Shown here in pieces: positions 29,052-61,572 of a stretch of DNA of 64,000 nt. The number at the start of each line of letters is the position of its first letter. The stretch's first letter is position 1. The DNA lies in the NCBI RefSeq assembly GCF_000185145.2, contig NZ_GL833116.1, forward strand, positions 250,501 through 314,500. Direction: 5' to 3'. The stretch is from Hoylesella oralis ATCC 33269. GTDB lineage: Bacteria > Bacteroidota > Bacteroidia > Bacteroidales > Bacteroidaceae. The translations under genes were made by a program, and so were the position numbers. Under the pieces are notes generated by a model. That model was not told the DNA's origin and ran no database searches. It worked only from the letters and a program-made list of their open reading frames with translations.

Positions 29052-29059
29052 TATCTTTG
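29052..29059 (+). promoter_or_regulatory. -7 box of the cobalamin riboswitch transcript
   Basis: TATCTTTG, placed about 20-30 bp before the riboswitch. A TTTTTTG lies at 29021-29027, slightly further than usual. Confidence 0.6.
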
Positions 29060-29079
29060 CATAGACAATCGGTTCATAA

Positions 29080-29235
29080 ACGCAATTGATTAAAAAGGGA
29101 AACAGGTGAAACTCCTGTACAGTCCCGCTGCTGTAAGCGATCCTTTTCTATGAATATGAACACGTAGCCACTGGCAATTTGTCGGGAAGGCGTTCATGTT
29201 TGGGTTGCAAGTCAGAAGACCTGCCGTTGTTTTTT
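29080..29235 (+). ncRNA. Cobalamin (B12) riboswitch
   Basis: The conserved landmarks occur in order: AAACAGGTGAAACTCCTG near 29101, the AGTCCCGCTGCTGTAAGCG core, GCCACTGG at 29167, CGGGAAGGCG, and the B12 box AGTCAGAAGACCTGCC at 29210-29225. A T6 run begins at 29230, so transcription may stop there when cobalamin is bound. A small hairpin, CAGAC/GTCTG (29294-29309), lies just before the btuB-like start and may take part in control of translation. Binding of adenosyl- or methylcobalamin is established for this RNA class. The rest of 28888-29322 is leader. Confidence 0.96.
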
Positions 29236-29322
29236 GGTGTGCTTGGCTGTTTCGAGGAAGGCGGCGAAGTCTTAATTCTAAATGGTTTATGGGCAGACGT
29301 CGGTGTCTGTCTCGTTCGTGAA

Positions 29323-39454: not shown

Positions 39455-39550
39455 TTGCAATCATAAATATTATTTGTAATTTTGCAATGTGTTTTTCATA
39501 GTATTAGATTTAAGGTTAACAAGGTTGGAGTACAGCGGTACTCCTTTTTT
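39455..39550 (+). ncRNA. Candidate small RNA (promoter, about 60 nt, terminator)
   Basis: TTG at 39455-39457 and TAATTTTG at 39477-39484 (19-bp spacing) form a full promoter. Only about 43 bp later comes a terminator: GGAGTAC (39527-39533), loop AGCG, GTACTCC (39538-39544), then T6. The predicted transcript (about 39491-39550) contains TTTAAGGTTAACAAGGTT and no ORF. This looks like a free-standing small RNA. I believe its core is conserved in the order, but I cannot check that here. Confidence 0.65.
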
Positions 39551-39555
39551 ATTGG

Positions 39556-57702: not shown

Positions 57703-57773
57703 GCACGGCAACCTGTTCTTATGTACAATTTGTTCATAGTAAAATAAAAACAAACCTAAAATAATTGTCAATT

Positions 57774-58850
57774 ATGTATAGAATTTTAAACAAATCGATA
57801 TGGGCGGGCATGGTGTTTATCCTTATGTCTGCCGTATTTACGGCTTGCTCTTCCGACGATAACAACACCCCCGCACCCGAGCCGCAGCCTAAACCTAAGG
57901 TAGAAGGCGATATAGACTGGGCCACTTGCGAAGTGCTTTTTAAGGAAGGACACCTGCATGGCGCAAAGTTTCACGGTAATCCCATGTCTTCTAAAATGAC
58001 CTTCCCGAGAGAGCAACATTGTGTGCTGAAGAAGAATGCCGACGGCACCATCGCCCTGATATCGGGTAAGGGAATGGAAGGGCGCAAATACTTTGTGGCG
58101 CTCGGAGGGTATTACTATGCCCTGCGTCTGGTATTTAAAAATGCTGCCGGAAAGGTGTTGAACGACGAAATAAGCAGCAAAGAAAATGCGTCGCATTATC
58201 AGATTTTCTACACTGTATCCGACCTCGACGACAGCGGTAAGCCGTATGTACCGAAGAATGTACGTACGGGGAATGCTCTTAAAGGCGATTGGGACAAGAA
58301 AGACTTTGCCGCAAGAGCAGCGATGAGTTCAGACTTTTTCGACTATAGATACCGCGATACCAATCCCGACAGCTTACAGATATCCACACAAATACCCGGA
58401 GGCAGCGCAGACGATGTGGTAAGCCTCCTGCGTATAGGGCGCGTTACAGACGGCACGCAACCACAGGATTACGTCGGTTTCAAGGGCTATTTCAATTTCT
58501 ATTTGCAACCTAAAGATGAAGAAGAGCAGGAACTTCCGAGCTATTTCATTGCCATGCGACTGCTCTATGCCAAAGCCACGAAGTACTTAGCTACGGCCGA
58601 TCCCGACGATGAAGACGATACCTATAAAAATATTAAGCGGCCTCTACCTTATTATTCTGCACCGACTGAGTGGAAAGAAGTATTGCGCTTTAATCTCCCG
58701 ATACGTGTTATTGCAGAGCAAAACGACTCGTTCCGCGATCCTGAACGCTTCTATGAAGACCTTAAACGGGAGTTCAAAAAGAGCGTAGAGGAACTAAAGA
58801 AAGAGTATGAAGAGCTTATTCCCGACGATAACAGCAGCTTTTATATGTAA
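57774..58850 (+). CDS. Receptor-linked lipoprotein B, with HxHG/FHGNP motif
   Basis: 358 residues from the ATG at 57774; the frame upstream has only a TTG. The signal ends AVFTAC, followed by SSDDNN, a probable surface-export signal, then a Pro-rich linker. Near residue 60 it has EGHLHGAKFHGNPM, a His-rich motif that could bind metal. The shared motifs with lipoprotein A show that the two are paralogues, with low overall identity. It would sit on the cell surface next to the TonB receptor and deliver the ligand. A strong terminator follows. Confidence 0.78.
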   Translation: MYRILNKSIWAGMVFILMSAVFTACSSDDNNTPAPEPQPKPKVEGDIDWATCEVLFKEGHLHGAKFHGNPMSSKMTFPREQHCVLKKNADGTIALISGKGMEGRKYFVALGGYYYALRLVFKNAAGKVLNDEISSKENASHYQIFYTVSDLDDSGKPYVPKNVRTGNALKGDWDKKDFAARAAMSSDFFDYRYRDTNPDSLQISTQIPGGSADDVVSLLRIGRVTDGTQPQDYVGFKGYFNFYLQPKDEEEQELPSYFIAMRLLYAKATKYLATADPDDEDDTYKNIKRPLPYYSAPTEWKEVLRFNLPIRVIAEQNDSFRDPERFYEDLKREFKKSVEELKKEYEELIPDDNSSFYM

Positions 58851-58884
58851 TTACAGCCTTTAGATAAGGAAAACAGACGATACT

Positions 58885-58922
58885 AATGCCACGCAATTAG
58901 CTTAAATTGCGTGGCATTTTTC
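58885..58922 (+). terminator. Terminator of the receptor-lipoprotein operon
   Basis: Perfect 14-bp stem AATGCCACGCAATT (58885-58898) and AATTGCGTGGCATT (58905-58918), 6-nt loop, T5 tract. Confidence 0.94.
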
Positions 58923-59088
58923 GGCTATCTATCCTAATATAGTTCCTAATAAGAACAAAAAAATGGGGTAGTTTCTCATAATTTACAATAAAAAAAGTAT
59001 TTTCTTAAAAGAATTGTTTACCTTTACAGCCGGTTACGATTATTTGTAACACAACATAAGAGTTTTAACGAAGCGTTATGCTTATCTT

Positions 59089-59211
59089 GTGGCTTGAAAA
59101 CTTAGGAAACTTTCAAAGAAATACAGAGAATGCATACGGATCGCCACGCATAAAGGCGTGGGCTGTAAACCGTATTCTGTATTTCAGGTATTCCTAAGAC
59201 CTTCAAGCTAC
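59089..59211. ncRNA. Nested 123-nt hairpin, candidate structured RNA
   Basis: Five helices nest in strict order: GTGGCTTGAA (59089-59098) with TTCAAGCTAC (59202-59211); CTTAGGAA (59101-59108) with TTCCTAAG (59191-59198); GAAATACAGA (59118-59127) with TCTGTATTTC (59176-59185); ATACGG (59134-59139) with CCGTAT (59170-59175); and CCACGC (59144-59149) with GCGTGG (59156-59161), closed by a 6-nt loop. That is 40 base pairs with small internal loops. It lies in a 720-bp gap with no gene. An RNA like 6S, a leader of the LRR gene, or a mobile inverted repeat are all possible; the strand is not fixed. Nothing else is recognisable in 58923-59640. Confidence 0.6.
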
Positions 59212-59640
59212 GAATGTGGGCATTGCAGTTCCACGCTTCATGTGTAATAAAAGGGCCTTTTACGAGGAACAGACGGGGCATATAAGGAGTTTATGCGTAT
59301 GGTGTATAAGGAATAGACACGGTTTTTAATGAAATTCATGCTATTTTATAGAATAGAGAGTTGTAATTCTTTAAAAGCAAACTATTTATATTTTATTGAA
59401 GTTTCGCAGATGTTTAGCTTCTTAAAATGTAAGATGTTGTGCTGTTAAGATGCAAAGACATTAGTTATAGGTACTAAAAACGAATTGAATAAATAGTTTA
59501 GGTTTGCAGGTTTAATTCGCTGTTTTTCGGTAATTCAACGGCTTGCAGACTTGTGTAAACTTGATAGATAGTCTTACAATTTTATTTATATTTTGCAGTA
59601 GTGGGTAACAACTGCAGTTAAAAGAGAATTAATAAAAGAA

Positions 59641-61572
59641 ATGAAAAGAATTATATTGTTGTGCTTTGCCATGCTGAGTATAGGGTATGCCATGGCAACA
59701 CTCGAAACCAAAGTGGCAGCAGATGGCTCTGTAACACTTACGTTGAAGGCCGCCGGAGATTTGGCCAATGGCTTCAACGGGTTACAGGAAAGCGTTAAAA
59801 ATGCCAAGAAAATAGCTGTTGTTACGGCTGCCGGCGTATCTATGAGCAGTGCAGATATGACGGCTTTGTGTGGCGGTTATGATGGGGCAAAGTTCCCTTT
59901 AATGGAGAAACTCTACTTGGAAAATGCCGATGTTTCTAACGACGACGACCTTAAATGGGTAAGTGTAAACACGCATCTGAAGTCGATTACTTTTCCTAAA
60001 AACACGAAGAAGATACCGGACAGGTGCTTGAAATTTGCAGGACATGGAACTGTTGAAGAAGTTATTATTCCCGATAATCCCGACCGTTCGCTTACTATCG
60101 GCGCGCAAGCCTTTGCCATTTCTACGTTAAAGCGGGTGGTATTGGGCTGCGTATCGAGCGGAACAATAGAGTTACAGGCTTTCTTGGATTGTACTGCACT
60201 GACCAAAGTAGACTTTCATACGGGGTGGACAAAAATCGATTATCAGGCGTTTCTCGGTTGTACGGCACTGAAAGACGTTGTGTTGCCCGAAGGAATTACA
60301 GAAATAGGGTATGGCGCTTTTTCGGGTTCTGCCATAGAAACGATACATTTGCCAAGCACTCTGAAGACCATACGTGCAACGGCTTTTCTCTGTAGTAACC
60401 TGAAATCGATAACTATACCGGCAGGTGTAGAGCTGATAGAGGGGCAGGCTTTCCAGAACTGTTATAACCTGTCGGATGTATATGTGTTGGGTGCGAATAC
60501 GAAAGCACAGGAACAAGCGTTCCCTCCGGCTAACACCTATAATTACAATTACAACGGTGCAGGAGCCGGAGAAGTTGTAACTAAAGATGCATTTACTTGC
60601 GGCGACGGCAATATGCGCACCCGAACAGTGCTGCATTATCCTAAAGATGCTTACGACAAATATGTTAATCAGAACACGAAAACATTGGGCACAGCGGGGA
60701 ATACTGCACGTTACGTGACCGATAAAGACGGCAACAGATGGCCCGTTGTCGATGAAGGAAAGTACAATAATAATACAGGTGATTACGCCGGATGGAACAA
60801 CTTTATGCTCGTATCGGGGCTGAAAAAGGAGGAAACTTGGGAGGATGATAAGCGTATAGATGATAAATGGTACACGCTGTGCCTGCCGTTCGACATGACC
60901 GAGACGCAGCTCAAAAGCGCGTACGGCAGTACTGTAGAAGTGGTGGAATTTTCGGATGTAGAGGTTACTACGAGTGCCGATCACGACAAAATGATAACAT
61001 TGAAATTCAAAACTCCCGTTACTTCCACCCGTGCTCACCATCCCTATATGATCCACCCGGGAATGCATGCAGGCACGGCAACGGGTGTAAAGACCACTAT
61101 CACCGGCATTGAAAAACAAGAGGAGAAACAAGAAAGTCTTGAAAACCAAAAGGTTGTTGTAACTAAAGATGGCGTTACCTACACGTTTATAGGCAATTAT
61201 GAAAAAACGAAGCATCTGCCTGCACCGTCTTATTACTACTATTCGGGGAAAGACGTATCGCAGTTTGCCAACGCATTTTATAAGTGGACTGCTGCCAACT
61301 CGGGTACATGGACACCGTACACCGCATGCGTAGTTCTCGATAAGGATAATGGTGCGAATGCCAAACCTATGGTTTCGTTCTTCTCAAAGGAGGATAACAG
61401 CCCGACGGGTATAAATTCTGTTACTGCCGGAAAGGGCATCTCAGACCGCCAGCCGGCCGACAATAAGGTGTACAACATGAACGGGCAGGTGGTATGCAGC
61501 GGTAATGTAAACCTGAAAAACCTGTCCAAAGGCATCTATATAGTGAATGGTAAGAAGTATATTGTACGATAA
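59641..61572 (+). CDS. T9SS-exported BspA-type leucine-rich-repeat protein
   Basis: 643 residues. The signal peptide ends near GYAMA (residue 19). Residues 80-290 contain BspA/LRR_5 repeats, recognisable as ALTKVDFHTGWTKIDYQAFL, ALKDVVLPEGITEIGYGAF and NLKSITIPAGVELIEGQAF. A second domain (about 370-590) has WYTLCLPFDMTETQLKSAYG, common in Prevotella surface proteins. The last 45 residues (VYNMNGQVVCSGNVN, KGIYIVNGKKYIVR) are a T9SS type A sorting tail. LRR proteins of this kind bind host fibronectin and other bacteria in oral relatives. A 65-codon gene follows after 16 bp. Confidence 0.88.
   Translation: MKRIILLCFAMLSIGYAMATLETKVAADGSVTLTLKAAGDLANGFNGLQESVKNAKKIAVVTAAGVSMSSADMTALCGGYDGAKFPLMEKLYLENADVSNDDDLKWVSVNTHLKSITFPKNTKKIPDRCLKFAGHGTVEEVIIPDNPDRSLTIGAQAFAISTLKRVVLGCVSSGTIELQAFLDCTALTKVDFHTGWTKIDYQAFLGCTALKDVVLPEGITEIGYGAFSGSAIETIHLPSTLKTIRATAFLCSNLKSITIPAGVELIEGQAFQNCYNLSDVYVLGANTKAQEQAFPPANTYNYNYNGAGAGEVVTKDAFTCGDGNMRTRTVLHYPKDAYDKYVNQNTKTLGTAGNTARYVTDKDGNRWPVVDEGKYNNNTGDYAGWNNFMLVSGLKKEETWEDDKRIDDKWYTLCLPFDMTETQLKSAYGSTVEVVEFSDVEVTTSADHDKMITLKFKTPVTSTRAHHPYMIHPGMHAGTATGVKTTITGIEKQEEKQESLENQKVVVTKDGVTYTFIGNYEKTKHLPAPSYYYYSGKDVSQFANAFYKWTAANSGTWTPYTACVVLDKDNGANAKPMVSFFSKEDNSPTGINSVTAGKGISDRQPADNKVYNMNGQVVCSGNVNLKNLSKGIYIVNGKKYIVR

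Follow-up and report, generated by a model that had tools for sequence, protein, structure and literature searches.

The 123-nt hairpin at 59089-59211 of the window (the whole 64,000-nt stretch of Hoylesella oralis ATCC 33269 DNA that was analysed) is the middle of a larger unit, a structured RNA of roughly 270 nt at about 59019-59295, in which a promoter, a 5' hairpin, a 171-nt core, a small hairpin and an ATG at +53 follow one another (Table 1). Judged from sequence comparison, this RNA is probably a copy of a new and widespread class of Bacteroidia leaders, which would act in cis, be bistable and affect the initiation of translation.

The minimum-energy structure of the 123-nt stretch contains 48 pairs and has an energy of -51 kcal/mol, compared to -23.9 ± 3.5 kcal/mol for 200 shuffles, none of which was as low (z -7.74). 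The nesting of helices beyond chance, claimed in the preliminary description, was thus confirmed, and covariation agrees with it. The minus strand gives an almost equally stable fold (-46.9 kcal/mol, z -6.78), and folding alone therefore does not decide the strand. The conserved core, 171 nt at 59070-59240, folds with -69.8 kcal/mol (z -7.73). The hairpin described earlier is real, but its coordinates were too narrow, since conservation spans the whole core and additional flanking elements. The gap 58851-59640 holds no assigned gene, as had also been stated, and no contained ORF of at least 60 aa; the sole ORF of that size touching the gap is on the minus strand (59586-59807) and overlaps the LRR gene. 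The palindrome at 58885-58918 is probably the terminator of the gene at 57765-58850, separating the leader from that gene. A simple scan, which missed this palindrome, found no intrinsic terminator or attenuator inside the leader (0 sites in 58840-59700).

Table 1. Coordinates of the leader elements and of the neighbouring palindrome in the window
Element	Position	Strand	Remarks
Terminator-like palindrome	58885..58918	+	Perfect 14-bp stem, 6-nt loop, then T-rich; behind gene 57765-58850
-7 promoter element TACCTTTA	59019..59026	+	One mismatch to TAnnTTTG; 51 nt before core
5' hairpin h0 (GTTAC/GTAAC)	59033..59050	+	Helix-level covariation, 0/300 nulls
Conserved core	59070..59240	+	Model R1 positions 1-170, 137.9 bits
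P1, 5' strand	59070..59075	+	Partner 59234-59239; 98.5% of cells paired; nearly invariant, 8/300 nulls reach its covariation
X, alternative partner of Y (about 59122-59130)	59083..59091	+	z 6.9 over 173 leaders; 8/300 nulls; weak here
P2, 5' strand	59089..59098	+	Partner 59202-59211; 0/300 nulls; pairs at E 0.000
W, within the P2 strand	59094..59099	+	Alternatively pairs with W' 59111-59116; 0/300 nulls; z 8.8
P2b, 5' strand	59101..59109	+	Partner 59190-59198; 0/300 nulls
W', alternative partner of W	59111..59116	+	Helix covariation and own-versus-swapped test
P3, 5' strand	59119..59124	+	Partner 59179-59184; 0/300 nulls
Apical hairpin	59144..59162	+	Sequence nearly invariant; 97.1% of cells paired; no covariation, 177/300 nulls
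PK2, 5' strand CAGTTCC	59226..59232	+	Complements loop of downstream hairpin; z 14.3; 0/300 nulls
P4, small downstream hairpin	59255..59279	+	GGAAC 59266-59270 pairs with 59228-59232; stem reached by 27/300 nulls
ATG at +53 from core, 7-codon ORF	59293..59316	+	Position where other leaders have their gene

Homologues of the RNA were found in many Bacteroidia. With 59040-59330 as the query, BLAST matched 50 of the 200 genomes searched in the genus; the better matches spanned query positions 28-204 or so, i.e. about 59067-59243. A covariance model, R1 (170 positions, 48 pairs), was built from 19 sequences, and it matched 83 of 119 genomes of the genus, 105 of 151 genomes and 17 of 22 genera in a draw from the family, 62 of 198 genomes and 51 of 147 genera in a draw from the order and, at E up to 0.001, 13 of 296 genomes in a draw from the phylum, 11 of those outside the family. 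These genome counts are lower bounds, since just 9-23 candidates per genome were scored and stricter filters were used. The most matches in one genome were at least 14, and a DNA pattern scan gave at least 119 leader-like stretches. Among the matches listed were Bacteroides rodentium, B. gallinarum, B. stercorirosoris, Phocaeicola, Parabacteroides, Xylanibacter, Prevotella sp. HJM029, Alistipes, Butyricimonas and Muribaculaceae records. The matches listed also included a Staphylococcus sp. MAG (L239) and an uncultured Firmicutes (L205), which may reflect a mislabelled bin or transfer. Nine loci outside the family (L335-L343) scored 48-70 bits with a similar fold; in five of these far homologues an ORF begins at +44 to +56, and the loop complementarity, compared by eye, is retained in several with two-sided changes, e.g. 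AGTCCC/GGGACT and AACCC/GGGTT.

A similar leader was present on seven plasmid records, one phage record and 16 viral contigs. On pBUN1 of B. uniformis (L345 1501-2679) it immediately precedes the beta-lactamase gene blaMUN-1, and on a Parabacteroides distasonis plasmid (L347 1501-2968) a DUF4433 gene. Tandem leaders within a few kilobases occurred at seven loci (L135, L176, L179, L180, L197, L199 and L224), and at L179 each of the leaders precedes related proteins. G388, G437, G527 and similar order-level genomes gave numerous weaker matches to the leader. A sizeable share of these lay no more than a few hundred bases from a contig end, as though linked to repeats that break the assembly.

In its own genome the window leader is single, with one R1 match and a next-best BLAST match of 22 nt. 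Leader copies within the same genome had a median identity of 0.71 (48 pairs), compared to 0.72 for random pairs. Dispersed copies that would mark the hairpin as a MITE, considered beforehand as its possible refutation, were consequently not seen, and a MITE or dispersed repeat was rejected. Leaders of homologous genes in different genomes had a median likeness of 0.76 (132 pairs), those of unrelated genes 0.72 between different genomes (400 pairs) and 0.71 within the same genome. In 998 leader pairs that were at least 82% alike and preceded unrelated genes, flank similarity fell to 0.56 (uncorrected for background) beyond 100 nt on either side.

Covariation among the homologues, proposed earlier as a check of the helices, was tested with an in-house approximation of R-scape (G statistic with APC; null alignments were simulated anew on a tree from FastTree). 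In the alignment fitted to the model, with 100 rows, 13 pairs were at E 0.000, all within P2, P2b and P3. As such an alignment leans towards its model, a MAFFT alignment made without structure and including the flanks (91 rows) was added, and it gave nine pairs at E 0.000, eight of P2/P2b and one neighbour cross-coupling, the best P3 pair having E 0.125. When the statistic was summed over helices, none of 300 phylogenetic nulls reached the values of P2 (538), P2b (362), P3 (264), h0 (150), W:W' (124) or PK2 (53), so that the check came out in favour of the three long-hairpin helices P2, P2b and P3. The sums of X:Y and P1 were each reached by 8/300 nulls, that of P4 by 27/300, and those of the GUGG/CCAC hairpin, hp1 and the apical hairpin by 99/300, 112/300 and 177/300, respectively. 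The last of these are largely invariant or, in the case of hp1, have a pair list partly out of register, and they carry little information. The X:Y sum was surpassed by two of its slid controls. Counting of pairs gave 92.9% of cells paired and two-sided changes at 36 of 48 pairs; on each of the five measures the observed value was attained by 0/500 shuffles.

An alignment-free test was used as well, in which a strand was set against its own partner and against the partner from another leader (173 leaders). With kinship remaining in this comparison, z was 14.3 for PK2, 8.8 for W:W' and 6.9 for X:Y, whereas seven controls gave -1.7 to 0.8. The 5' mini-hairpin hp1 (GAAGC/GCUUC) was dropped, with z 2.7, its own partner above the row median in 38/173 leaders and the high null count given above. 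Paired columns held 106 G-U cells compared to 33 A-C cells, as expected of a plus-strand RNA; the excess comes from P1 (50 v 5) and P2 (33 v 8) and not from P2b (5 v 4) or P3 (18 v 16).

The strand W has two mutually exclusive partners, W'' in the inner part of P2 and W'. As X:Y encloses W:W', the two can form one local 5' hairpin, which is exclusive with P2 and overlaps P3, and it is because of these alternative pairings that we call the leader bistable. If W:W' is imposed on the window core, the fold becomes 15 kcal/mol less favourable, and it is thus possible that W:W' is only a folding intermediate.

An exact TAnnTTTG was found at -75 to -35 before the core in 133 of 179 leaders, with a peak at -53, compared to 5/178, 6/176, 3/173 and 6/171 in four control windows further upstream. 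Open reading frames of at least 50 aa within 500 nt were surveyed for 178 leaders, the window copy being excluded, and 175 of these had one behind the core. The first ATG of this ORF came 40-62 nt after the core in 98 leaders; in 35 the distance was 63-110 nt, and in the other 42 the ATG lay elsewhere. Among the 67 leaders with enough upstream sequence available, 54 had a same-strand ORF starting at 40-110 nt, and nine had an ORF start on the reverse side. Between the core and the ATG there is a small hairpin, whose loop, similar to GGNACUG, complements CAGUUCC at the end of the core. The class as a whole thus has what is expected of a cis-acting leader, a promoter upstream and a same-strand start codon at a constrained distance, and the window copy has it in part, with a one-mismatch promoter and an ATG at +53 that opens just 7 codons. 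The 5' UTRs of gut and oral Bacteroidales are described as mostly short, with a median of 32 nt in B. thetaiotaomicron according to PMC7366714, and compared to this a leader of roughly 270 nt common to unrelated genes is unusual.

An upstream ORF inside the core, MLIL-stop, was considered and rejected, since its start codon is absent in 8 of 81 leaders and other frames also close early. By hand count, a stop ends this frame within 13 codons in 64 of the 73 leaders with the start codon, and the other two frames in 49/73 and 31/73. A conserved short upstream ORF, as a leader-peptide attenuator would have, was not found among the 81 leaders.

The genes behind the leader are diverse and, as far as their sequences tell, rich in exported proteins. 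The 138 proteins scanned of the 175 belong to 86 Pfam families, the commonest being LRR_5 (12) and then TerB (4), and no common pathway was found among the 25 families listed of the 86. With simple heuristics, a hydrophobic N-terminus was predicted for 91/128 downstream proteins compared to 112/377 other ORFs of the 8-kb loci, and a lipobox-like start for 35/128 compared to 25/377. HxsD was among the downstream proteins (NCBIfam). A defence theme was rejected, as PADLOC matches fell into many families, each represented by 1-3 members.

We suggest that the RNA would form the 5' UTR of a transcript, roughly 270 nt long, and would act in cis. During transcription the 5' hairpin of X:Y with W:W' would form first and then yield to the long hairpin, and the outcome of this switch would, via the pseudoknot PK2, set the access to the start codon. 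Translation initiation is favoured over transcription because the spacing of the start codon is constrained and because the pseudoknot is made to the hairpin preceding it. A global trigger, e.g. an RNA-binding protein, the translation state or envelope stress, is more likely than a single metabolite, since no pathway is common to the genes. Against this reading stand the ORF picks outside 40-110 nt (42/175) and the trivial ORF behind the window leader. It is unlikely, although conceivable, that the leader is constitutive, its structure protecting the mRNA or keeping the start codon open without any switching. Genes lacking a common pathway would suit such a leader, as would the 15 kcal/mol by which the long hairpin surpasses the alternative fold of the window copy, but W:W', which excludes the inner P2, is nevertheless maintained by compensatory change. 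The two supported exclusive pairings and an almost invariant apical part could also speak for a metabolite riboswitch, which we regard as quite improbable in view of the 86 families without a pathway among those listed.

A leader for antitermination or for escape from Rho, letting RNA polymerase through accessory genes, appears improbable. Such a function would be in line with one element ahead of unrelated genes, plasmids included, and Rho-dependent regulation of leaders is discussed for Bacteroides in passages of PMC13269538, but the start codon lies at a fixed distance and the hairpin in front of it takes part in the pseudoknot, both of which indicate translation. The lack of a real gene at +53 in the window copy would be natural for a free-standing small RNA gene, or for a small RNA derived from the leader and acting in trans; the spacing and the same-strand gene in most copies make this very improbable. 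A DNA element, i.e. a recombination site or a mobile repeat, is hardly credible. Consecutive leaders at several loci, the occurrence on plasmids, a phage record and viral contigs, and the many weak matches near contig ends in fragmented assemblies could point to one, whereas the promoter, the start-codon spacing, the G-U excess, the single copy here and the fact that same-genome copies are not more alike argue against it.

No Rfam family was found to match the leader. At the region, an Rfam search with E up to 10 gave chance-like matches far below the gathering scores and none inside 59070-59240, and with 16 homologous loci and E up to 1 three matches were obtained, all below the gathering scores. 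Elsewhere in the window, Rfam gave a cobalamin riboswitch (RF00174, 97.6 bits) at 29052-29242 (+) and the FopS small RNA (RF04319, 75 bits) at 39489-39554 (+). Of the identities suggested in the preliminary description, an unknown RNA class is consistent with the lack of Rfam matches, the homologues in many genomes and the strong covariation. A 6S-like RNA was not supported: neither RF00013 nor RF01685 matches in the region, and members of the class occur in multiple copies and stand ahead of genes. These two models had no match anywhere in the own genome either, and RF01685 was above its cut-off in none of the control genomes (0/14), which leaves room for a divergent 6S RNA elsewhere in the genome.

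The tetQ leader of CTnDOT is a structured Bacteroides leader that controls translation, and it is said to use a leader peptide. Going by its description it differs from the present class, in which the start codon of the candidate peptide can be absent (8/81) and none is visible in the far homologues. JUMPstart and similar antitermination leaders act on RNA polymerase and are, like the leader described here, single elements ahead of many genes, some of them surface-related. The leader differs from JUMPstart, which is listed in the part of PMC2864571 considered, by its constrained start-codon spacing. The Rfam families of Bacteroidota named in that part of the paper, 6S-Flavo (RF01685), Bacteroidales-1 (RF01693), Bacteroides-1 (RF01694) and Bacteroid-trp (RF01692), are also structured RNAs of the same phylum, and none of them matches the region or the 16 loci; the comparison covered motifs with an Rfam number, and two others given there, Bacteroides-2 and the GUCCY-hairpin, have none. 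In Bacteroides thetaiotaomicron, the leader of the roc mRNA governs synthesis of the protein encoded behind it whatever the promoter, and does so on a foreign gene as well, according to passages of PMC10294740; the likeness is one of description only, and roc concerns one gene, the window class many. No published description of the leader was recognised in full-text literature searches, and the passages considered from PMC8040213, PMC2864571, PMC7366714, PMC10294740 and PMC13269538 contain no RNA recognised as the leader.

The window leader itself is well preserved, and its gene appears to have been lost or displaced. P2, P2b and P3 are intact, PK2 is down to 5 pairs and X:Y is weak. The frame opened at 59293 ends with TAG after its 7 codons, and the LRR gene starts at 59641, 401 nt after the core; near this start only the promoter-like TATATTTTG was found. 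Orthologues of the LRR gene in three genomes (G017, G012 and G026) have identities of 53, 52 and 43%, and in these genomes R1 gave no match and the LRR upstream flanks gave short matches with no leader-like stretch. A further genome, G028, with a 36% LRR relative, has leaders elsewhere. No remnant of a lost gene was recognised in 59241-59640 by tblastn of the 175 downstream proteins (best E 0.02). The 7-codon ORF, the distant LRR start and the LRR orthologues in genomes with no detected leader led us to regard the window copy as most likely orphaned or displaced. The earlier proposal of a long leader controlling the surface protein thus holds for the class, with its promoter and spaced start codon, as far as being a leader is concerned; control of the LRR gene at this locus was not upheld, given the short ORF at the modal distance, the 401 nt to the LRR gene and the missing leader matches in the genomes of the orthologues. 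Since BspA-type LRR proteins are the commonest single family behind leaders (12/138), a link is still possible, and so is read-through from the leader into the LRR gene.

Such a leader class would make it testable whether Bacteroidales coordinate genes by RNA structure rather than by transcription factors. We tentatively raise the possibility, bolder than the reading favoured above and somewhat doubtful, of an ancient gene-agnostic RNA switch, in which bistable pseudoknotted leaders would put unrelated, mostly exported or accessory genes, some of them on plasmids, under one post-transcriptional signal. If this holds, gut and oral Bacteroidales would express much of their accessory and secreted repertoire through one shared RNA leader, and RNA leaders would take the place of a transcription factor in building the regulon.
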